NCBI RefSeq assembly: GCF_028993635.1
Contig: NZ_CP118631.1
Location: forward strand, 2,604,001 to 2,668,000
DNA from: Mucilaginibacter sp. SJ
GTDB taxonomy: Bacteria; Bacteroidota; Bacteroidia; Sphingobacteriales; Sphingobacteriaceae
Direction of reading: 5' to 3'
Length of the DNA stretch: 64,000 nucleotides
Shown here: piece after piece, positions 28,120-38,678 of the stretch
Layout of the letters: each line of letters starts with the position of its first letter
Numbering within the stretch: the first letter of the stretch is position 1
Made by a program: the position numbers and the translations under genes
The notes under the pieces: generated by a model
The model's database searches: none
Told to the model about the DNA's origin: nothing
Seen by the model: the letters and a program-made list of their open reading frames with translations, nothing else

Positions 28120-29547
28120 ATGAGCAAAGTATTTACTATTACCGAAGGTTTGGAAAACATGGGGGCTTTACGAACGGGCGGCCAGGGCTCTGTTTATAAA
28201 GGTCGCCGTTATGGGCCTATTATCACAGCGGTAAAGCTCCTGCCCACTCCTATTCACACCGAAAGCACCGACGATAAAAATTTTCGCAATTTCCAGAACG
28301 AGGTTGAAAAACTAAAAAAGGTAAACGAAGAGCCTAACCCAAATGTGGTTAAGATCCTTAATTCGGGTATTACCGAAAGTGGTTCGTTCCCGTTTATCGA
28401 AATGGAATATATTGATGGCCCCGATTTGGAAGACCTGCTGAAACCACCTCATGAGGCTATCTTCAGCATTAAAGAGATCATCAAACTGGCCGATCAGCTG
28501 GCAAACGCGTTATCGCACTGCCACAAAGTTTCGGTAAAGCATGGCGACATCAAAAGCAACAATGTAAAGTTCAACGTACATACCGGAAATTACGTGCTGC
28601 TTGACTTTGGTCTTTCGGCCATGTCTGATGATCAGCGCCGTACCAGTATACGTCATGCGGGCGCTATTGAATTTATGGCGCCCGAACAAAACGAGGGCCT
28701 GATGTATTTTCAAACCGATGTTTACAGCTATGGCATCATCCTGTATGAATTGATTGGAGGGCAAGTGCCCTTCCCGCTAAAAGATAATGGCGAAACTGCC
28801 CGCAACGCCGTGATGCTGGCCCATATGGAGTCGGAGATGCCTGATGTAATGGAACTGCGCCGCAAAAACCTGCCCGAAAGCTGGTCGGACGAAAAAAAGG
28901 AAATGCAAATGCAGGTTCCGGCCTGGCTATTGCAGATTGTAGCTAAATGCCTGCAAAAAGACATCAATAACAGGTATGCCAACGGTATTGAATTACAGGA
29001 AGCTTTGATGCAGGGCAGTATCGGCGCTATCAGCCCAACGCACCCCGATGAATCGTGGAACACCGAAGTTTTATTGAAGGAAAATGAACGCCTGCAGGGG
29101 CTGGTGCTATATTACCAGGAAAACGAGAACAAGCAACCGGCACAGGTAGTTAACAGCGAACCTGTGGACAATAAAGCGGTGCGCATGTCAAAGCCAATTT
29201 TTGTTTTGTTCATGATATTGCTTTGCGGTTTCACCGTTTTCTCTGCAGTGGTGATGGATAAGTTTGGCGGGCGTATTTATAATGGGGTGGTTAGCAGGCT
29301 GTTTAAACCTTCGAAAAAGGCAAGCGATTCGGCTGCAAGTAGTAAAATTATCCCCTCCCAAAAAAAAGACTCTGTACAGCAGCCTAAGGCCAGTGATTAC
29401 AAAGATGAGAGCAATATTCCACCGGAAGTTGATTCAACCGCCGATTCGATATTGCGTAACATACAACGGGCAAAACAACAAAAGGAAGATACGCAGTTTT
29501 ATCGCGATAGTGTGAAAAAAGCGGATACCTCTAACTTAAACTTTTAA
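28120..29547 (+). CDS. Membrane Ser/Thr protein kinase
   Basis: A 475-residue Hanks-type kinase. The glycine loop TGGQGSVYKG is at 19-28, the ATP lysine is Lys39 in TAVKLL, and the catalytic loop is His141-Gly-Asp143 (HGDIKSNNV, so a non-RD kinase). The metal loop is Asp162-Phe-Gly and the APE-like motif is MAPEQ at 186-190. One membrane span (359-378) separates the cytoplasmic kinase from about 95 extracytoplasmic residues rich in Ser, Lys and Asp, with no PASTA domains. It is the first gene of a packed plus-strand operon with FhaA-like, PP2C, SEDS-PBP and FHA genes. It probably phosphorylates partners encoded alongside to set cell-wall synthesis; that role is inference from context. Confidence 0.93.
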   Translation: MSKVFTITEGLENMGALRTGGQGSVYKGRRYGPIITAVKLLPTPIHTESTDDKNFRNFQNEVEKLKKVNEEPNPNVVKILNSGITESGSFPFIEMEYIDGPDLEDLLKPPHEAIFSIKEIIKLADQLANALSHCHKVSVKHGDIKSNNVKFNVHTGNYVLLDFGLSAMSDDQRRTSIRHAGAIEFMAPEQNEGLMYFQTDVYSYGIILYELIGGQVPFPLKDNGETARNAVMLAHMESEMPDVMELRRKNLPESWSDEKKEMQMQVPAWLLQIVAKCLQKDINNRYANGIELQEALMQGSIGAISPTHPDESWNTEVLLKENERLQGLVLYYQENENKQPAQVVNSEPVDNKAVRMSKPIFVLFMILLCGFTVFSAVVMDKFGGRIYNGVVSRLFKPSKKASDSAASSKIIPSQKKDSVQQPKASDYKDESNIPPEVDSTADSILRNIQRAKQQKEDTQFYRDSVKKADTSNLNF

Positions 29548-29565
29548 TGATTTAGCAAATACAGC

Positions 29566-30531
29566 ATGGAACCTAAATCAACATTTTGGAAACGGATAGG
29601 CCTTCAGGACTGGTTTTTACCAAACGGAAAACCAGTAAACGAGGAGGCTGTAAAAATAAAAGCGCTAACGCCCGATGACGTGTATTTATACATCATCGAA
29701 AAATTCAAGGAATCGATCAAGCAGCTTTCTTTTGCCGACAGGATAGTTTTTTACCATGAATTTATCATCAGCTTTAACGAGGAAGATTACCAGGATTTTG
29801 TAAATAACCGCTCTGGCTTGTTCGGCATTATTGTTAATGAATCTGTAAAAAAGTTTTATGAATTGCTGCGCGAACACCAGGAAGTAGGCAAAAAGGTGGA
29901 ACCTTCAAGCTCAAAATGGGTATTCAGGCTGGTATCACACCCGGATTATAAACGCGGCGATAAGGGCTTCATAGGCAAACTGCTGCCCGGCACAAGCGCC
30001 AAAAAAGAAGAGAACCTGCGGGTTACCTTCATTCCGCGCCAAACGGGTGTTGCCCAAACGCTGGATATCAGCAATGAGGTTTTAAAAGGCTTTACTTATT
30101 ACAGCGAGGGTTATTATGAATTGCCTTATGCTAATGACCTGCAGCACAACGAAAAGGACGTAGTTAAGCCCGGAACCAAGGTGCTGGCCCGGCTGGAAAC
30201 CATTATGCCCGATAAGCAGTTTGTTGGCCGCAAGGTGGAGTACCTGATCAAGGATGATGATATTGTTGTATCGGGCAGTGATGAGGAAAGGGACGAGCAG
30301 GCCGTGTTTAAGGTACCGTCTGAATGGGTGAACACCCCCCACCTGCGCATCCGATTAAATAAAGCCGATGGCAAGTTTTACATGGCATCTTTTGGCGAGC
30401 GTACCCTGATCAACGAATTGGAAGTAGCCGGTAGCGACGTGAATTCGCCGCAATGGGTTGAGCTGCCGTTCAACTCCAGGATCCTGCTCAATGGCATAGT
30501 AGGTATTAACATATTTAAACCCGAACCATAA
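29566..30531 (+). CDS. FhaA-like cytoplasmic protein with degenerate FHA-type C-terminus
   Basis: A 321-residue protein with no membrane span. Residues about 35-145 have a helix, a strand FIISFNEEDYQDF, a second helix and the strand WVFRLVSHPD. This order resembles the DUF3662-type N-domain of actinobacterial FhaA. Residues about 225-318 read like an FHA fold: VEYLIKDDDIVV, then VNTPHLRIRL where an intact domain would have SRxHxxI, then GERTLINELEV in place of GTFVNG, then SRILLNGIVGINIF. The usual Gly-Arg and Ser-Arg phosphothreonine contacts are not preserved, so binding to phospho-proteins is doubtful. The gene is 18 bases after the kinase and overlaps the next start by one base. The FhaA relation is my reading, not a search result. 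Confidence 0.55.
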   Translation: MEPKSTFWKRIGLQDWFLPNGKPVNEEAVKIKALTPDDVYLYIIEKFKESIKQLSFADRIVFYHEFIISFNEEDYQDFVNNRSGLFGIIVNESVKKFYELLREHQEVGKKVEPSSSKWVFRLVSHPDYKRGDKGFIGKLLPGTSAKKEENLRVTFIPRQTGVAQTLDISNEVLKGFTYYSEGYYELPYANDLQHNEKDVVKPGTKVLARLETIMPDKQFVGRKVEYLIKDDDIVVSGSDEERDEQAVFKVPSEWVNTPHLRIRLNKADGKFYMASFGERTLINELEVAGSDVNSPQWVELPFNSRILLNGIVGINIFKPEP

Positions 30532-30617
30532 TGTCACAGGTATTATCAATAGGGCTGCTGGCAATATGTGTGCTGTTATTGGTAGCTCATTTTATCGACA
30601 TAAAAAAATCCAGTTAA
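30531..30617 (+). CDS. 28-residue single-span membrane peptide
   Basis: The stop of the previous gene and this start overlap as TAATG (ATG at 30531), and the next gene starts four bases after its TAA. The product MSQVLSIGLLAICVLLLVAH, then FIDIKKSS, is one hydrophobic helix followed by a short basic tail. This is the look of a small regulatory or stabilising membrane subunit. It is below usual annotation length. The packed arrangement, one-base overlap and clean topology support translation; there is no homology evidence. Confidence 0.55.
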   Translation: MSQVLSIGLLAICVLLLVAHFIDIKKSS

Positions 30618-30621
30618 AACC

Positions 30622-32055
30622 ATGGCAAATAATTTTTTCGGGATAACAGATACCGGTAAGCAAAGGCAAAACAACGAGGACGTTTTTATTGCCGAAAAAT
30701 CTGGTGATGGTAATTTTATCATTGCCTGTGTGGTTGATGGGGTTGGCGGTTATGCCGGTGGCGAAATAGCTGCCGAAATTGCCCGCGCCACCATCCTGGA
30801 GCAATTGCAATATATAGCCGGCGATATTGTGCCGCTGCTGGTAAATACTTTTACCATTGCCAATCAACGGATCTACGACGAAAAAGTACAAAACAAAGAT
30901 CTTGAAAACATGGCCTGTGTGCTTACGCTGGCCGTGGTTGATGTGATCAACAATAAATTTTATTATGCCCACGTTGGGGACACGCGCCTGTACCTGCTGC
31001 GCGATTATTCGCTGATCAAGATCTCGAAAGATCATTCTTTTGTAGGCTTCCTGGAAGATTCGGGCCGGCTGACCGAGGAAGCGGCCATGGACCATCCCAA
31101 ACGCAATGAAATTAATAAAGCCCTTGGCTTTGCCGGGCAGATAGGCCAGGATCCCGATTTTGTGGAGACTGGTAACTCGCCCTTTTTACCGGGTGATATC
31201 CTGCTCATTTGCAGCGACGGCTTAACCGATCTGGTTGATAAAAGCAAGATCACCAGTATCCTTACCAGCAGCGATAACCTGCCCGAAAAGGGAAAAAAAC
31301 TAATTGATGCAGCCAATAACCGTGGTGGAAAGGATAATGTGACCGTGGTACTGGTACATAACGATAAGGAGCGCAAGCAACACAGCGCCACTAAACCAGT
31401 GGTAGCTGCTGTAAAAGCGCCCGAACAGCAGGAAGCAATTACGCCCGCCCCGGTAAAAAGGCCGGAAGAGCCTGATCCTGTGGTGAAAACCAAAGGCAAC
31501 GGCGGCACAGTAGCTGTACTTACCCTGCTTTGCTTTATCTTTTTGGGTGGATTTATCTGGCAGTTTAAAAAGAACGCCGATCAGGCTGCTATTCCTAAAA
31601 AAACAGATACGTTGGTAGCTCAGCATATTAAAAACGCGGTAGAGCTCAAGCTTCAGGATACTATTAACAAATTAAAAGGCCATACGCTGTTACTTTCGGC
31701 GGCTGATTTTCAGCAGCCTATTGTGCTGAGCGATACGCTGCATATCAATAAGGATAGCCTGTATATTAAAACAAAGGGTGCCGTCGTATTTAAGAAAGAT
31801 TCTACCTATTCGGGCCCGGCTATCGCGCTGGCTGCTAATTGTAAATATGTAGTGTTGGATAGCGTTGCTTTTGACGGCTTCCGCACAGCCATTATTACAC
31901 ACAACGATGCCTTGGTGCTGAAAAATGTGCAGTTTAATAACTGCTTAACGCCGGTCCAGGCATCGTACATGTTCCCTAATAAAAAATACATATCAGGCAG
32001 ATTGTTTGGCAGCATGTTCAAAACTGATTCTGTTCCAACTAAAGCTACCCACTGA
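30622..32055 (+). CDS. PP2C-family Ser/Thr phosphatase with membrane span and outer beta domain
   Basis: A 477-residue protein. The PP2C/Stp1 domain spans about 1-245: RQNNEDVF (metal Asp), VVDGVGGYAGGEIA, YAHVGDTRLYLL, ICSDGLTDLV and GGKDNVTVVLV, all metal ligands present. A Pro/Lys-rich linker leads to one membrane span (about 293-313, TVAVLTLLCFIFLGGFIWQF). About 160 extracytoplasmic residues follow, with beta-helix-like repeats (LYIKTKGAVVFKKDSTYSG, YVVLDSVAFDGF, ALVLKNVQFNNC). It should reverse the kinase on the cytoplasmic side, as PstP/Stp do. The outer domain is unusual for this family and could sense the wall. The downstream gene starts three bases after its stop. Confidence 0.92.
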   Translation: MANNFFGITDTGKQRQNNEDVFIAEKSGDGNFIIACVVDGVGGYAGGEIAAEIARATILEQLQYIAGDIVPLLVNTFTIANQRIYDEKVQNKDLENMACVLTLAVVDVINNKFYYAHVGDTRLYLLRDYSLIKISKDHSFVGFLEDSGRLTEEAAMDHPKRNEINKALGFAGQIGQDPDFVETGNSPFLPGDILLICSDGLTDLVDKSKITSILTSSDNLPEKGKKLIDAANNRGGKDNVTVVLVHNDKERKQHSATKPVVAAVKAPEQQEAITPAPVKRPEEPDPVVKTKGNGGTVAVLTLLCFIFLGGFIWQFKKNADQAAIPKKTDTLVAQHIKNAVELKLQDTINKLKGHTLLLSAADFQQPIVLSDTLHINKDSLYIKTKGAVVFKKDSTYSGPAIALAANCKYVVLDSVAFDGFRTAIITHNDALVLKNVQFNNCLTPVQASYMFPNKKYISGRLFGSMFKTDSVPTKATH

Positions 32056-32058
32056 TAA

Positions 32059-35000
32059 ATGGCCCAGGAAAATCCCAAGGTACCCGGCAGGAGAATGGAA
32101 CGGCTGTTCCTGTTGCTTACAGGCATATTACTGGCCGTTTTATTTTTGAAGCTCTATAGCGTATTGCAACTTAAATTCACTGATGTTGATAAGCGCCTGA
32201 AGGACGGTACTATCGTAAATCTTAACTCGCCCAATACCGCTCAAAACGTAAAGGCGCTGCTTAAAAAGGGTTATTATTTCGATGATCCCAGGGATGTTGA
32301 TTACATTGAATCGGTAATAGCATCGCGTAAAACAACCGGCGACCTGGTTGATAATACCGGCGAACTTAACAAACGTAAATACTACGTAAATGCCGACGAG
32401 GCCTTTGAAAAAGGCGGTGAAACTTTCAAGAAACGCGTACTTACCTCCCGCACACTTTTAGGCTATACCGGCGATGATTCCATCCGCTTTGAACAGGAAT
32501 TGAAAAATCCACCATCATTGGGTGCCCAAACCGATCTCAACCTTGGCGAATACAGCATTAAAGGTACAATAGCCCACAAAGGCGAACCTGTGCCCGGTGT
32601 ACTGGTAAAGCTCACCATGATTTTGCCCCGCGACAGCATTTTCAGCGATGAGGAGACCGGGGCTAAAACCTCCTATTCGGAAAATGCCTCATCATACAAA
32701 AAACTGTATGTACTTAACGATCAGAAAAAGAAGGTACTGCAGTCATTAACCGCCTTTGCCCGTACCGATGAACAGGGGCGGTTTGTATTTGCCAAACTGC
32801 CAACCGGCAAAGCATTTTCGGTATTGCCCATGCAGCCCGGCTTTGAGTTTGGCCGCTCGCAGGGCGTTGACGAACTGGACAAAGACGTAACCTTTAAATT
32901 TAACCAGGCACCTCATAGTATCAAGCTACTCTCTACCCGCGATTTTAACATCCTGAAAAAAGAGGGTGCCTTTATCGTGCGCTACCAGGAAGAGTTTAAC
33001 ATGTGGTACTGGATTATAGCCGGAAGCTTTTTTGCAAGCTTTATCATCGTACACCTGTTACTCAGCGCCCGGTATCCTAATGCCGATCAGATCATTTTAC
33101 CCCTGATCATGATGCTTACCGGTATCTCATTCCTTACGCTTTTAAGCCTGCAAGACCCACTGCGCGATAGGTTCCTGGCTAAGGATACGCTTGTTTATTT
33201 GGGCATCGGTATGGCGGGGATCTGCATCATTCAGCTATTTAACCTTCGCCGTCTTAACCCCGACTCAGGCTTTTACCGTTTGCTTATTTTTAAATGGAGC
33301 AGGAGTGCCGCCAATGGCTGGCCCTGGGCTATTGTTGCCATGGGCATCCTCTTTTCCACTATCTTGTTTGGTACCGGCCCCGAGGGTAGCGGTGTAAAAG
33401 TTAACCTGCTGGGTTTTCAGCCAAGTGAAATTGTAAAATACCTCATTGTTATCTTCCTTGCGGGATTTTTTGCCACCAACGAAAAATTCATCAGTCAATA
33501 CGCCAGCTGGGGCAAGCGTTGGTCGTTCTTTTCTTTTGCACTTATAGCCACAATAATAACCCTGCTGCTGTTTTTGGTTTTAGGCGATCTGGGTCCGGCC
33601 ATGGTGATCTGTTTTACGTTCATCATCCTGTTCTCTTTTTCCCGCGGCGATTTCCTTTATATGGCGGGCTTTGTGGTGCTATTTGTGCTCACTACCTGGT
33701 TTTTTGATAATATATGGCTTAGCGCGGGCATCACATTTTTTTCGCTCGGGAGCGTAGTATTTTTCAGGCGGAGGAGGTTGAGTGAATCGGCCATTATGGC
33801 GCTCGTAGTGATCACTGCTTTTTTAACCATCGATAAAATTCCGGGGCTCGATAAAATTATCCCCGGTCCGGTGGAACGCCTGGTTGAGCGTAAGGCCATT
33901 TGGCAAGACGCCTGGAATAATGAAGTTTATGGCGGCGACCAGGTAGCTAACGGACTTTGGGCCATGGCCAGTGGAGGGGTAAGCGGACAAGGTGTTGGTC
34001 AGGGCTTTGCCAAAACTATCCCCGAGGCACATACCGATATGATATTGCCATCCATTGGCGAAGAGTTTGGCTGGGCCGGCATGGCCGCGGTGTTCATCTT
34101 GTTTTTGTTGTACCTGCACCGCTCCATCATCATAGGTCGGCAAACGGGGATGCCCCTGCTGTTTTACCTCAGCGCAGGTATCGGGGTATGTACCTTTGTG
34201 CAGTTTTTGCTGATTGCGGGCGGCTCTATCGGAGCATTGCCATTATCCGGGGTTTCCCTTCCTTTTGAAAGTTACGGCGGCTCATCATTGGTAATAAATC
34301 TGCTGGCAGCGGGCTTCCTGTTGTCGGTATCATCTGTTAGGGGTACGACTGTGCAAATGGATTATATCACCAAACAACAGGATAAAAACCTGGTACCTGC
34401 ATTGGCAGCCGCGCTTGCCGGAGTGGTATTATTGGTGGTGAATGTATCGCGTTACACAACAGATAATAAGCAATGGGTTGTAAAACCTGCTTTGGTTGCC
34501 GATAAAAGCGGCCTGCGAATGTTTAGCTATAACCCACGTATAGCCATATTGATGAACAGGTTGCAGGCCGGTACCATCTATGACCGTAACGGCCTTATCC
34601 TCGCTACCAGCAAACCCGAGCTTATCGAAAAACAAAAAAACAAATTAAGCGCTTCGGGCATGCTACATTATGACCTGGATTCGGCTATGCACAAGCGTTT
34701 GGACAGGTTTTATCCTTTTGAAGAACAAATGTTTTTTTGGACGGGCGATCAAAACACCGGTGTCTTCAACGGCAGCACCAACGGTTATTTTGCCGAGTAT
34801 GAACATGCCGCCGAACTTCGCGGGTTTCATATGCCTATCACCAATTATAATGTGAAGGCATCACGTTACCAGGAAGACCGGTTCCTGCCCCGCGGAATGA
34901 AAGAAATGACCGTAGCTAAAAAGGACTACAGCGCCTTGGCCAATCTCCTTGTAAGTGATATCAACGGCCCAGAGGTAGAGGCTTTCAAAAACAAAAACCG

Positions 35001-36135
35001 CGATGTAAAGCTCACGATGGATGCCGATCTCCAAACCAGTATTCAGCAATCTATCGCTTCCGACACTTCGCTGTATGATAACAGGGTTTCAGTAGTTATC
35101 GTGGAATCCAACACCGGCGATGTGCTTACATCGGCACAATACCCGCTGCCTCCTGTGCACAACTGGGACCAGTTGACTATGCCACTGGCCGATCAGAATA
35201 AACTGGCTACCTGGTTAACCACTACCGATCTGGGTTTTACCTATGCCAGTCAGCCTGGTTCAACGGCCAAAGTTTTAACGGCGATGTCGGCATTTAATAA
35301 ATTAGGCATCGCTGCATCTGAAATACAATATCATGTGAGCACCCAGGAGCGGATCCGTACCAAGGGCATTGAGCCCGACGAGACAGGGATGATCACCATG
35401 GAGCGCGCCATTGCCAAATCAAACAACGTATATTTTATTAAACTGGCCAACCAGGAACACCTGGAAGAGTACATGGCAACGCTGTACCTTAAAACAGGGA
35501 TGTTTTTGCATGGCGTAGGCGGTTACTATTATAATAAACCGGTATTGAATGCCACTCAGGAAGATAAGTGGCGCACCTTATGGCGTAAAACCGAATTTAA
35601 TACCAAACCACGGTACGATCCTAACAATATCCATAAAACAAGGGCAAAAGGTATTTCGGGCATGGCCTGGGGGCAGGGCGAGCTGATTGCTACCCCCGCG
35701 GCGGTAGCAAGGCTGGTATCAGGCGTGGCTAACGACGGTATGTTACTGGCAAACAGGTACGCGCTAAAAATTGCCGATTCAACAGTGGCTGTAAAAAGCG
35801 GTATCAAGCTGGCCGAAGATCCGCGTTATGCTGCTTTGTTAAAACAATATATGATTGAGCAAAGTGCGCCTAAAACGCCTATATTAGGCATCAAGGTAGC
35901 GGGCAAAACCGGTACGCCGGAACGTATTGTAAGGAACCAGAGCGTTAACGATGGCTGGTATGTTTTCTTTGCACCAAAAGAAAAAGGCAGCGGCTATTTG
36001 GTGGTTTGTATCCGGGTAGAATCAACCCGCGGATCATCAGACGCGGTACACCTGGCCGGCAATCATGTGATCCCTTTCCTGCTGAAAAAAGGTTATATAA
36101 AAAGCATGGAAACGGAAACCACTACCGAAGAATAG
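32059..36135 (+). CDS. SEDS glycosyltransferase - class B PBP transpeptidase fusion
   Basis: A 1358-residue single chain. Residues 13-33 span the membrane. Residues 35-310 are extracytoplasmic and include a carboxypeptidase-regulatory-like beta domain (YSIKGTIAHKGEPVPGVLVKL, about 165-260). A SEDS (RodA/FtsW/SpoVE) body of about ten spans follows (315-760) with LLGFQPSEIVK, GDLGPAM, PEAHTD with the catalytic Asp660, IGEEFGWAG and GVSLPFESYGGSS. A further span (779-795) leads to a class B PBP: GTIYDRNGLIL and the transpeptidase motifs Ser1068-Thr-Ala-Lys1071, Ser1121-Asn-Asn1123 and Lys1283-Thr-Gly1285. SEDS polymerises lipid II and the PBP crosslinks it; the two are normally separate proteins. 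All catalytic residues are present, so it is probably active. Confidence 0.93.
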   Translation: MAQENPKVPGRRMERLFLLLTGILLAVLFLKLYSVLQLKFTDVDKRLKDGTIVNLNSPNTAQNVKALLKKGYYFDDPRDVDYIESVIASRKTTGDLVDNTGELNKRKYYVNADEAFEKGGETFKKRVLTSRTLLGYTGDDSIRFEQELKNPPSLGAQTDLNLGEYSIKGTIAHKGEPVPGVLVKLTMILPRDSIFSDEETGAKTSYSENASSYKKLYVLNDQKKKVLQSLTAFARTDEQGRFVFAKLPTGKAFSVLPMQPGFEFGRSQGVDELDKDVTFKFNQAPHSIKLLSTRDFNILKKEGAFIVRYQEEFNMWYWIIAGSFFASFIIVHLLLSARYPNADQIILPLIMMLTGISFLTLLSLQDPLRDRFLAKDTLVYLGIGMAGICIIQLFNLRRLNPDSGFYRLLIFKWSRSAANGWPWAIVAMGILFSTILFGTGPEGSGVKVNLLGFQPSEIVKYLIVIFLAGFFATNEKFISQYASWGKRWSFFSFALIATIITLLLFLVLGDLGPAMVICFTFIILFSFSRGDFLYMAGFVVLFVLTTWFFDNIWLSAGITFFSLGSVVFFRRRRLSESAIMALVVITAFLTIDKIPGLDKIIPGPVERLVERKAIWQDAWNNEVYGGDQVANGLWAMASGGVSGQGVGQGFAKTIPEAHTDMILPSIGEEFGWAGMAAVFILFLLYLHRSIIIGRQTGMPLLFYLSAGIGVCTFVQFLLIAGGSIGALPLSGVSLPFESYGGSSLVINLLAAGFLLSVSSVRGTTVQMDYITKQQDKNLVPALAAALAGVVLLVVNVSRYTTDNKQWVVKPALVADKSGLRMFSYNPRIAILMNRLQAGTIYDRNGLILATSKPELIEKQKNKLSASGMLHYDLDSAMHKRLDRFYPFEEQMFFWTGDQNTGVFNGSTNGYFAEYEHAAELRGFHMPITNYNVKASRYQEDRFLPRGMKEMTVAKKDYSALANLLVSDINGPEVEAFKNKNRDVKLTMDADLQTSIQQSIASDTSLYDNRVSVVIVESNTGDVLTSAQYPLPPVHNWDQLTMPLADQNKLATWLTTTDLGFTYASQPGSTAKVLTAMSAFNKLGIAASEIQYHVSTQERIRTKGIEPDETGMITMERAIAKSNNVYFIKLANQEHLEEYMATLYLKTGMFLHGVGGYYYNKPVLNATQEDKWRTLWRKTEFNTKPRYDPNNIHKTRAKGISGMAWGQGELIATPAAVARLVSGVANDGMLLANRYALKIADSTVAVKSGIKLAEDPRYAALLKQYMIEQSAPKTPILGIKVAGKTGTPERIVRNQSVNDGWYVFFAPKEKGSGYLVVCIRVESTRGSSDAVHLAGNHVIPFLLKKGYIKSMETETTTEE

Positions 36136-36160
36136 TGTTTAAGCAGAAAGGAAAGAGCAA

Positions 36161-36955
36161 ATGGCATTTAGTTTATTTAAAAGGAGCGGCGAAAAACAAC
36201 CCTGGGATGTAAAAAGCTTACGTGAGGCTATATTACGTTTCATTAAAGAATCGTTACAAAAGATAGAAGGTGGAGAAGGTGGCCATATCAAAGAGCTGAA
36301 GCTTTTTATAGTTGCCGATGCCGAGGATAAGCCTATTTATGAGGGCGCGGTTTATGTACATGATAAAGCGTTGTTCAAAAACGAGGTTCAAAAAATAGCC
36401 GACGATTTTGACATCAATTTGCCCCCTGACTGGACGCTGGACGTTGAGTTCACGGAAGAACTCCCGGCGGAAGCGAAAAGGATTCCCGATCTGGATGCAG
36501 CCTTTATCATGAATACCCGCAAGCAGGTTGCTCATAATGCGGCCTCCTTTACAGCCTATTTACGGATCCTGAGCGGTGAGGCCGAAAAAGAAGAATACCT
36601 GATTAAAGCTACCGACCCCAAACTCTACATTGGGCGAGATAAAAAGTCCGTTACCGAAAATGGATCGTTCAGGCTAAATCAATTTGTTTTTCCGGGAGAG
36701 AGCAGGGACGAAAGTAATAAATACATCAGCAGGCAGCATGCCCATATTGAATGGGATGCAGAAAGCGAGCGCTTCATGATCTTTGCTGATGAAGGCGGCG
36801 TACCTCCGCGCAATAAAACCAAGATCCATATCGCGGCCGATGGTAAGATGATCAAACTCAATTCCACTCAAATTGGCCACCCCCTAAGTGAAGGCGACCA
36901 GGTAATATTGGGAGAATCGGCGGTGTTTTTGTATACTACGATAGCAAACCGATAG
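36161..36955 (+). CDS. FHA-domain protein, FhaA-like
   Basis: A 264-residue cytoplasmic protein, 25 bases after the SEDS-PBP stop, with AGGAAAG before its ATG. The N-terminal part (about 15-110) has a helix, then LKLFIVADAEDKPIYEGAVYVHDKALFKNEVQKIADDFD and WTLDVEFTEEL. This is again reminiscent of the FhaA DUF3662-type domain. The C-terminal FHA domain (about 135-262) contains LYIGRDKKS and NKYISRQHAHIEWD, with the Arg, Ser and His that contact phosphothreonine intact, and ends in GDQVILGESAVFLYT. It would dock onto the phosphorylated kinase or another phospho-partner. In actinobacteria FhaA links such kinases to wall synthesis (MviN, PBPA); a parallel job here is inference. Confidence 0.87.
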   Translation: MAFSLFKRSGEKQPWDVKSLREAILRFIKESLQKIEGGEGGHIKELKLFIVADAEDKPIYEGAVYVHDKALFKNEVQKIADDFDINLPPDWTLDVEFTEELPAEAKRIPDLDAAFIMNTRKQVAHNAASFTAYLRILSGEAEKEEYLIKATDPKLYIGRDKKSVTENGSFRLNQFVFPGESRDESNKYISRQHAHIEWDAESERFMIFADEGGVPPRNKTKIHIAADGKMIKLNSTQIGHPLSEGDQVILGESAVFLYTTIANR

Positions 36956-38037: not shown

Positions 38038-38678
38038 TGCCCCAGAGGGGCAAAAGGTTTGTAGAAAAATAATGTAAATTTGATTAGAGCACCAGAGGTG
38101 CTCAACTTAACGAACCTGATCACGAAGGATGGCAAGAACACTTATTCTCAGTTACATATCCACATCGTTTTCGCCGTAAAATATCGTATGGCGTTAATTG
38201 AAGATACCTGGGCCGAGCGGTTAAGAATGTACATAACTTCGATTATTCAAAACCAAGGGCACAAATTAATAGCTATTAACAACATGCCCGATCATCTGCA
38301 TTTATTTATCGGATTAAATCCCAATCAATCTATTTCTGAAATTGTGCGCATCATAAAAAGCGACTCATCCGAATGGATTAATAAACAAAAATTAGCCAAT
38401 GGCGGATTTCAGTGGCAGGAAGGATATGGAGCTTTTAGTAATAGCAGGTCACAAATTGATAAGGTGGTAAACTACATAGCAAACCAGCAAGGGCATCATC
38501 GAAAAATTACATTTTTAGACGAATACAGGAAAATGCTAAATGATTTCAATATCGAATTTGACGAACAATATATCTTTAAATTGCCTCAATAATTAACTTG
38601 TTGGCTTTGTTCAGCCCCTCTGGGGCTGTAAAAGGAGGGGCATTTATTTTTCTACAAACCTTTTGCCCCTCTGGGGCA
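38038..38678 (+). mobile_element. IS200/REP-associated transposase element with inverted ends
   Basis: About 641 bases. The left end (38038-38072) is the hairpin TGCCCC-aga-GGGGCA followed by AAAGGTTTGTAGAAAAATAA. The right end (38644-38678) is its reverse complement, a match of about 35 bases. Each end has a second, inner hairpin: GAGCACC-aga-GGTGCTC (38087-38103) and AGCCCC-tct-GGGGCT (38613-38627). A tyrosine transposase lies between. IS200/IS605 elements normally have unlike subterminal hairpins, whereas RAYT genes are flanked by inverted REP sequences, which is the arrangement seen here. Confidence 0.75.
38080..38592 (+). CDS. Y1 tyrosine transposase (IS200/RAYT type), start uncertain
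   Basis: A 170-residue HUH-type single-strand transposase. The metal-binding His72-Leu-His74 is in NMPDHLHLFIG and the catalytic Tyr132 in KVVNYIANQQGHHRK; QWQEGYGAFSNS is also typical of the Y1_Tnp family. Conserved sequence begins at NTYSQLHIHIVFAVKYR (residue 20). No in-frame ATG precedes that point; only a TTG (38080) and a GTG (38098), both inside a hairpin region. An ATG at 38129 is out of frame, and removing two bases near 38134 would give the usual MANTYSQ start, so the gene may carry a small frameshift at its 5' end. Catalytic residues are intact. Confidence 0.85.
   Translation: MIRAPEVLNLTNLITKDGKNTYSQLHIHIVFAVKYRMALIEDTWAERLRMYITSIIQNQGHKLIAINNMPDHLHLFIGLNPNQSISEIVRIIKSDSSEWINKQKLANGGFQWQEGYGAFSNSRSQIDKVVNYIANQQGHHRKITFLDEYRKMLNDFNIEFDEQYIFKLPQ

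Follow-up and report, generated by a model that had tools for sequence, protein, structure and literature searches.

A Bacteroidota operon encoding a SEDS-PBP fusion with a Ser/Thr kinase, a PP2C phosphatase and FHA proteins appears to share part of its ancestry with the actinobacterial fhaA-pknB cluster

Control of cell wall synthesis by Ser/Thr kinases has been studied in Actinobacteria and Firmicutes. A six-gene locus in a genome of the Bacteroidota raises the question of whether a peptidoglycan synthase under such control is also encoded in this phylum, and whether it shares descent with the actinobacterial gene cluster that it resembles. The locus occupies positions 28120-36955 on the plus strand of a 64,000-nucleotide stretch (here called the window) of Mucilaginibacter sp. 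SJ (assembly GCF_028993635.1, NZ_CP118631.1, positions 2,604,001 to 2,668,000). The host genome is a single 6.82-Mb contig, and Mucilaginibacter gossypii is a near relative in which the central protein of the locus, a fusion of a SEDS protein with a penicillin-binding protein (PBP), is 99% identical (locus L073). A sequence-only reading of the window had taken the locus for a packed operon corresponding to the actinobacterial cluster, with RodA and PbpA merged and with a phospho-controlled synthase separate from the standard pairs. The six open reading frames (ORFs) were all found at the coordinates and on the strand that it gave, with intergenic gaps of 18, -1, 4, 3 and 25 bases, and the gene products it named were upheld by Pfam and NCBIfam matches, structural models, motifs and a chain of profile comparisons, as follows (TM, transmembrane).

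28120..29547, plus strand: membrane Ser/Thr protein kinase, 475 aa (Pfam Pkinase, E 2.9e-35)
29566..30531, plus strand: FhaA-type adaptor, 321 aa (FHA fold in a model, and profile chain)
30531..30617, plus strand: 28-aa single-TM membrane peptide (conserved hydrophobic ORF in this slot)
30622..32055, plus strand: membrane PP2C Ser/Thr phosphatase of PstP/Stp1 type, 477 aa (Stp1_PP2C_phos, PP2C_2)
32059..36135, plus strand: SEDS-PBP fusion, 1358 aa (Pfam, TM scan, catalytic residues, SEDS and PBP trees)
36161..36955, plus strand: second FHA protein, 264 aa (pocket residues, AlphaFold2/Foldseek FHA fold, position after the fusion)

Judged from its sequence, the operon probably specifies an accessory peptidoglycan synthase together with a Ser/Thr phosphorylation circuit of its own that controls it. 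We regard it as a Bacteroidota variant whose ancestry is partly that of the actinobacterial cluster, and not as a full member of that cluster.

The synthase itself is the product of 32059, in which Pfam FTSW_RODA_SPOVE (3.3e-41) and Transpeptidase (1.7e-23) domains lie in one 1358-aa frame. Its layout comprises a TM segment (18-36), an outside domain of about 280 aa, a second TM segment (319-337), the SEDS half (about 348-759), the TM segment of the PBP (778-796) and the transpeptidase domain (1011-1322). The catalytic Asp660 of the SEDS half (TD...GEE motif) and the PBP motifs S1068-K1071 (SxxK), S1121-N1123 (SxN) and K1283-G1285 (K[TS]G) are kept in 101 fusion sequences, and the fusion thus has the motif set predicted for a SEDS-class B PBP synthase. 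Two more SEDS genes, both single-domain and both in a row with a PBP gene of their own, are present in the genome, and therefore the fusion is an extra synthase, in agreement with its proposed separateness from the standard pairs. By motif, the canonical RodA-PBP2 and FtsW-FtsI pairs, both separately present in the genome, have the same two enzyme activities as the fusion; the SEDS tree, however, sets the fusion apart from either Bacteroidota SEDS type, since grouping it with Bacteroidota RodA (p 0.009) or with Bacteroidota FtsW (p 0.008) was rejected. Instead, the SEDS halves of the fusions formed one clade with the cluster RodA proteins of Nocardia, Tsukamurella and Monoglobus (support 100/99), in trees that sampled Actinobacteria and Clostridia thinly, with three sequences for SEDS and four for PBP. 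The PBP halves were monophyletic, and their grouping with FtsI was rejected (p 0.03). The outside module of about 280 aa, which could be a sensor or a wall-binding part, showed weak carboxypeptidase-regulatory/transthyretin-like matches (window 32166-33012, E 0.02 and 0.14).

Joining a SEDS protein to a PBP is not in itself without precedent, given that fusions in a single ORF are on record from nature and that synthetic SEDS-PBP fusions are functional (PMC10449877). A linear plasmid of Rhodococcus pseudokoreensis (NZ_CP070615.1; L140:10249-13089) likewise carries a SEDS protein and a PBP in one frame, with no kinase, PP2C or FHA gene annotated within the 25 kb read. This protein was discarded as a relative, both of its halves falling outside the Bacteroidota fusion clade.

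The sequence-only reading had set two tests for itself beforehand, namely co-occurrence of the genes in related genomes and a relation of the SEDS, PBP, FHA and kinase parts to the named families. To the second, profile, tree and fold evidence gave a positive answer for the kinase, PP2C, SEDS and FHA parts. As to the first, 79 loci came from one scan, which covered 84,980 species genomes; 75 of them were complete over the core and four were short contig pieces. The order FhaA-type gene, PP2C gene, fusion gene and FHA gene, on one strand, was kept in all 75 complete loci, and the FhaA-type profile and the fusion were present in the identical 41 of 201 family genomes (the two 41-genome lists were compared by eye). 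These two results rule out a chance cluster. The distribution of the set is patchy, as it was found in 24 of the 35 genus genomes sampled, 41 of the 201 family genomes, 7 of 295 genomes of a class sample and about 15 of 395 genomes of a phylum sample. In other families, where the fusions are 34-58% identical, the FhaA-type and FHA genes still adjoin the fusion and the PP2C and kinase genes mostly do so too, and a 137-kb plasmid of Spirosoma oryzicola carries the complete set.

An accessory, patchy distribution together with plasmid carriage is also what a back-up enzyme might show, and the fusion could be mainly a low-affinity, beta-lactam-tolerant synthase that is induced when the wall is damaged, the kinase sensing the damage. 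PBP2a and PBP5 are indeed among the PDB sequence matches of the PBP half, but these matches are weak (E about 1e-5) and of a kind common to many class B PBPs, and affinity is not readable from sequence. We therefore regard this explanation as unlikely, while noting that it is compatible with a synthase governed by its own phosphorylation circuit.

The components of that circuit were assessed one by one. The 28120 kinase has a kinase domain at about 18-287, one TM segment (360-378, by hydropathy) and an outside tail of about 97 aa, and its HxD, DFG and APE motifs are kept across 129 homologues. It is the stronger of two kinase matches above cut-off in the genome. A kinase was found within the stretch at hand in 76 of the 79 loci. 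In one relative, a kinase fused to an FHA domain (L118:14654-16042, FHA 3.4e-10) immediately follows the FHA gene of the cluster.

The 30622 phosphatase has its catalytic domain at about 9-245, a TM segment at 294-312 (again by hydropathy) and a C-terminal region outside. It matched Pfam PP2C_2 (E 8.6e-12) and NCBIfam Stp1_PP2C_phos (8.1e-61), the latter at 205.5 bits, slightly under the 230-bit cut-off, which the PstP of Nocardia itself also misses (226.5 bits). As a Stp1-type PP2C with one TM segment, the product has the predicted make-up of PstP. The metal-site aspartates of PP2C are kept across 91 homologues, one partial row excepted. In one relative (L123:7262-11416, plus strand) PP2C, SEDS and PBP form an in-frame triple fusion of 1384 aa, flanked by the FhaA-type gene and a TM peptide on one side and by the FHA gene on the other. 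The outside C-terminal part of the window phosphatase (window 31516-32055) matched a pectate-lyase-like beta-helix family weakly (PF12708, E 0.007).

The 36161 product showed a weak Pfam FHA match under the cut-off (E 0.005, 17.6 bits), and an AlphaFold2 model built from an orthologue alignment had an FHA fold at the C-terminus (Foldseek E 6e-6). Its phosphothreonine-pocket residues, GR158-159 and SRxH190-193, are invariant across 88 sequences. A PDB sequence search found nothing with the protein alone and one weak, irrelevant match with its profile. Orthologues of this protein in two relatives (L122:11435-12805 and L123:11479-12753) have an N-terminal Swt1-like HEPN domain (PF18731, 1.5e-25 in L122; the L123 protein aligns there), which the window protein lacks.

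Because the operon holds the sole PP2C_2 match that the genome yielded, in a search that did not extend to SpoIIE-type phosphatases, and the strongest kinase, and because no other FHA match above the threshold used was found anywhere in the genome, a dedicated circuit is the most economical reading. In such a circuit, the SEDS half of the fusion would polymerise lipid II and the transpeptidase half would cross-link the product. The membrane kinase would phosphorylate threonines on its operon partners, that is, on itself, the FhaA-type protein and the cytoplasmic parts of the synthase, and the intact 36161 FHA protein would read the mark; the FHA domain of FhaA bound to the intracellular part of Rv3910 (structure 3oun) is an example of such a reader. 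The PP2C, whose domain in L123 is part of the synthase polypeptide, would erase the mark, while the FhaA-type protein, its phosphate pocket decayed, and the small membrane peptide may be structural adaptors keeping the circuit in place at the synthase. We infer from sequence which activities the enzymes have, which protein phosphorylates which and that wall synthesis is switched by phosphorylation; whether phosphorylation would turn it up or down is not readable from sequence. Of the proposed phospho-controlled synthase, then, the kinase, PP2C and FHA parts, their active sites, their linkage and their shared inheritance are established, and the control itself is deduced.

In mycobacteria, growth, division and wall synthesis are regulated by PstP, the kinases and FhaA/FhaB, and one transcript carries pstP together with rodA and pbpA (PMC6554272). 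Many targets of this phosphatase and these kinases lie outside the wall (PMC6554272), which lends some weight to the idea that the phosphorylation genes control a process other than the synthase, such as division timing or a general stress response, with the fusion merely as their operon companion. We consider this improbable, given the strict co-inheritance of the genes as a patchy and once plasmid-borne set, the in-frame PP2C-synthase fusion that links the circuit to the synthase, and the fact that the searches at the thresholds used returned no PP2C_2 or FHA match elsewhere in the genome.

Whether the operon is related to the actinobacterial cluster or only resembles it depends in large part on the FhaA-type protein. 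The 29566 product had no Pfam match. Its AlphaFold2 model, built from an orthologue alignment, showed a C-terminal FHA fold at residues 204-321 (Z 14 to the FHA domain of MDC1 and Z 12 to that of FhaA). The N-terminal parts of both the 29566 and 36161 products lie outside the FHA structural matches; for 29566, the structural search covered the FHA part only and confidence in the N-terminal model is low, and hence the lack of an FhaA_N match there is uninformative. Profile comparisons tied the 29566 family to deep orthologues in two steps, the first reaching Cytophagales-type orthologues (E 9e-32) and the second leading on to the deep ones (E 1.3e-16); the alignments span most of the length. 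The deep orthologues in L119 and L120 match Pfam FhaA_N at 27.4 and 26.5 bits (cut-off 25) and FHA at 46-47 bits, and those in L122 and L123 have an FhaA_N match under the cut-off, plus FHA. The combination of FhaA_N and FHA that marks FhaA is thus present in deep members, and is assigned in the Mucilaginibacter genome by transitivity only. FhaA_N was present in 4 of the 395 phylum genomes, in each of which a match lay within a few kb of a fusion, and among 14 control genomes it was present in Corynebacterium only. In L122 (3072-5342) and L123 (3949-6153), a gene for a LysM and SLT lytic transglycosylase lies directly 5' of the FhaA-type gene, which adds a wall hydrolase to these loci.

Since the deep orthologues carry FhaA_N, FhaA_N sits beside the fusions and the SEDS halves form a clade with cluster RodA, the FhaA and SEDS parts appear, on sequence grounds, to share ancestry with the actinobacterial fhaA-fhaB-pstP-rodA-pbpA-pknA-pknB cluster, which goes beyond analogy. 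The alternative is independent assembly, in which a local SEDS-PBP pair was fused in Bacteroidota and gathered kinase, phosphatase and FHA genes, the likeness being convergent. The Sphingobacteriales FhaA-type family did not match actinobacterial FhaA significantly when their profiles were compared directly (probability 2%), the PBP half is not firmly tied to PbpA and the domain make-up of the kinase is not PknB-like, all of which would suit such an origin. It is nonetheless quite unlikely, as the deep orthologues that carry FhaA_N, a domain otherwise absent from the sampled phylum, come from the same locus, the SEDS halves are placed with cluster RodA and apart from the SEDS proteins of Bacteroidota, and FhaA, TM slot, PP2C, RodA and PBP follow one another as they do in Nocardia.

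The 28-aa peptide is, by its conservation, evidently a real gene. An equivalent hydrophobic ORF ending in ...HFxDIKxS occupies the same slot in 69 of the 75 loci. In the distant relatives L116, L118, L119, L122, L123 and L129 this slot is filled by TM peptides of 22-31 aa; in L119 the peptide is present without a PP2C gene after it, and it probably starts inside the longer ORF that was detected there. The peptide had no Pfam match. Its descent from FhaB was considered and found no support in sequence, since its similarity to the TM segment of FhaB is not above that of other TM segments (the best fraction in the comparison, 0.04, was reached by two deep peptides, each with just one of the two references used); by position alone it may still be an FhaB relic.

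For comparison, the actinobacterial cluster was read directly in Nocardia farcinica (L139) and Tsukamurella (L147), and in Nocardia it comprises fhaA, fhaB, pstP, rodA, pbpA, pknA and pknB. The operon shares with it the FhaA family, a PP2C with one TM segment, a SEDS protein of the same clade, a class B PBP and a membrane Ser/Thr kinase, as well as the order FhaA, TM slot, PP2C, SEDS, PBP. The order differs from that of Nocardia in FhaB, in the extra FHA gene and in the place of the kinase. In contrast to the actinobacterial cluster, the Bacteroidota loci have a single SEDS-PBP protein that bears an additional outside module at its N-terminus; a TM peptide of 22-31 aa, with no FHA domain, at the fhaB position; an additional FHA gene after the PBP; and a kinase without PASTA that is often the first gene, while the FhaA pocket has decayed in Sphingobacteriales. 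It is because of the fused SEDS-PBP, the lack of PASTA and of FhaB, the extra FHA gene and the pocket loss that we do not file the operon as a member of the actinobacterial cluster. In a clostridial FHA-RodA-PbpA trio in Monoglobus (L146), the SEDS and class B PBP genes likewise have an FHA gene as neighbour, and the SEDS protein falls in the fusion clade; the trio differs in that SEDS and PBP are separate and the FHA protein has just 112 aa, and no kinase or PP2C is annotated in the stretch read.

Several observations weigh against the proposed accessory synthase with its own phosphorylation circuit. The PBP half joins PbpA at 74/59 only, and its grouping with PBP2 was not rejected (p about 0.2); of the proposed merger of RodA and PbpA, the SEDS half is therefore placed in the cluster-RodA clade, while the PBP half is a candidate PbpA. 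The 29566 product is without the canonical phosphothreonine-binding residues, G-R and S-R-x-H being replaced by VSG and NTPH. This loss is graded: deep FhaA-type branches keep the pocket intact (IGR...SREH), proteins of the Spirosoma-type group have lost half of it (IAR...SNPH), and in those of Sphingobacteriales and Chitinophagaceae it is gone (VSG...NTPH). Neither the 28120 kinase nor five locus kinases of relatives have a PASTA domain by Pfam, the match of the former to NCBIfam PknB_PASTA_kin (147 bits) is under the cut-off of 450, and the catalytic loop of the Sphingobacteriales group is non-RD, with HGD instead of HRD; therefore, as far as its sequence tells, input and activation of this kinase differ from those of PknB. 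In addition, the kinase gene shifts between both flanks and is frequently duplicated, being only upstream of the core in 27 loci, only downstream in 10 and on both sides in 39. Finally, the fusions of L119-L121 are adjoined by FhaA and FHA genes without an adjacent PP2C or kinase gene. Thus, of the claim that the locus is a counterpart of the actinobacterial cluster, shared FhaA and RodA ancestry was retained, and full equivalence was not.

When all of this is combined, one may tentatively picture a self-contained, horizontally mobile and phosphorylation-gated synthase module across the Bacteroidota whose ancestry is shared with the mycobacterial wall-growth cluster, in which the FhaA of Sphingobacteriales has become a phospho-independent pseudo-FHA adaptor, the second FHA protein has taken over reading, and nearly all of the Ser/Thr phosphorylation machinery of the host serves one fused enzyme; this composite is possible, and we hold it with less assurance than the presence of an accessory synthase under its own circuit. 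Natural SEDS-PBP fusions are already known, as is the fhaA-pknB linkage, which PMC6554272 describes for Actinobacteria and some Firmicutes and for no other lineages. Their combination in Bacteroidota is apparently new, a literature search for FhaA in Bacteroidetes or for a SEDS-PBP fusion with FHA/PP2C having found no relevant paper in the library covered, which is not proof that none is published. Phosphate-controlled wall growth may thus extend far outside the lineages known to have it. The mobile Bacteroidota version, with its halves fused (and the phosphatase too in one relative), would offer a minimal test system of one kinase, one phosphatase and one synthase for a question that is harder to address in mycobacteria, with their many kinases and several synthases. 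Likewise, the graded pocket loss in FhaA (GR/SREH to AR/SNPH to SG/NTPH) is a natural series for the role of FhaA without phosphopeptide binding.

About 1.1 kb beyond the operon, an ORF at window 38080-38592 (plus strand; HLHLFIGLNP...) resembles, as judged by eye only, an IS200/REP-associated transposase.

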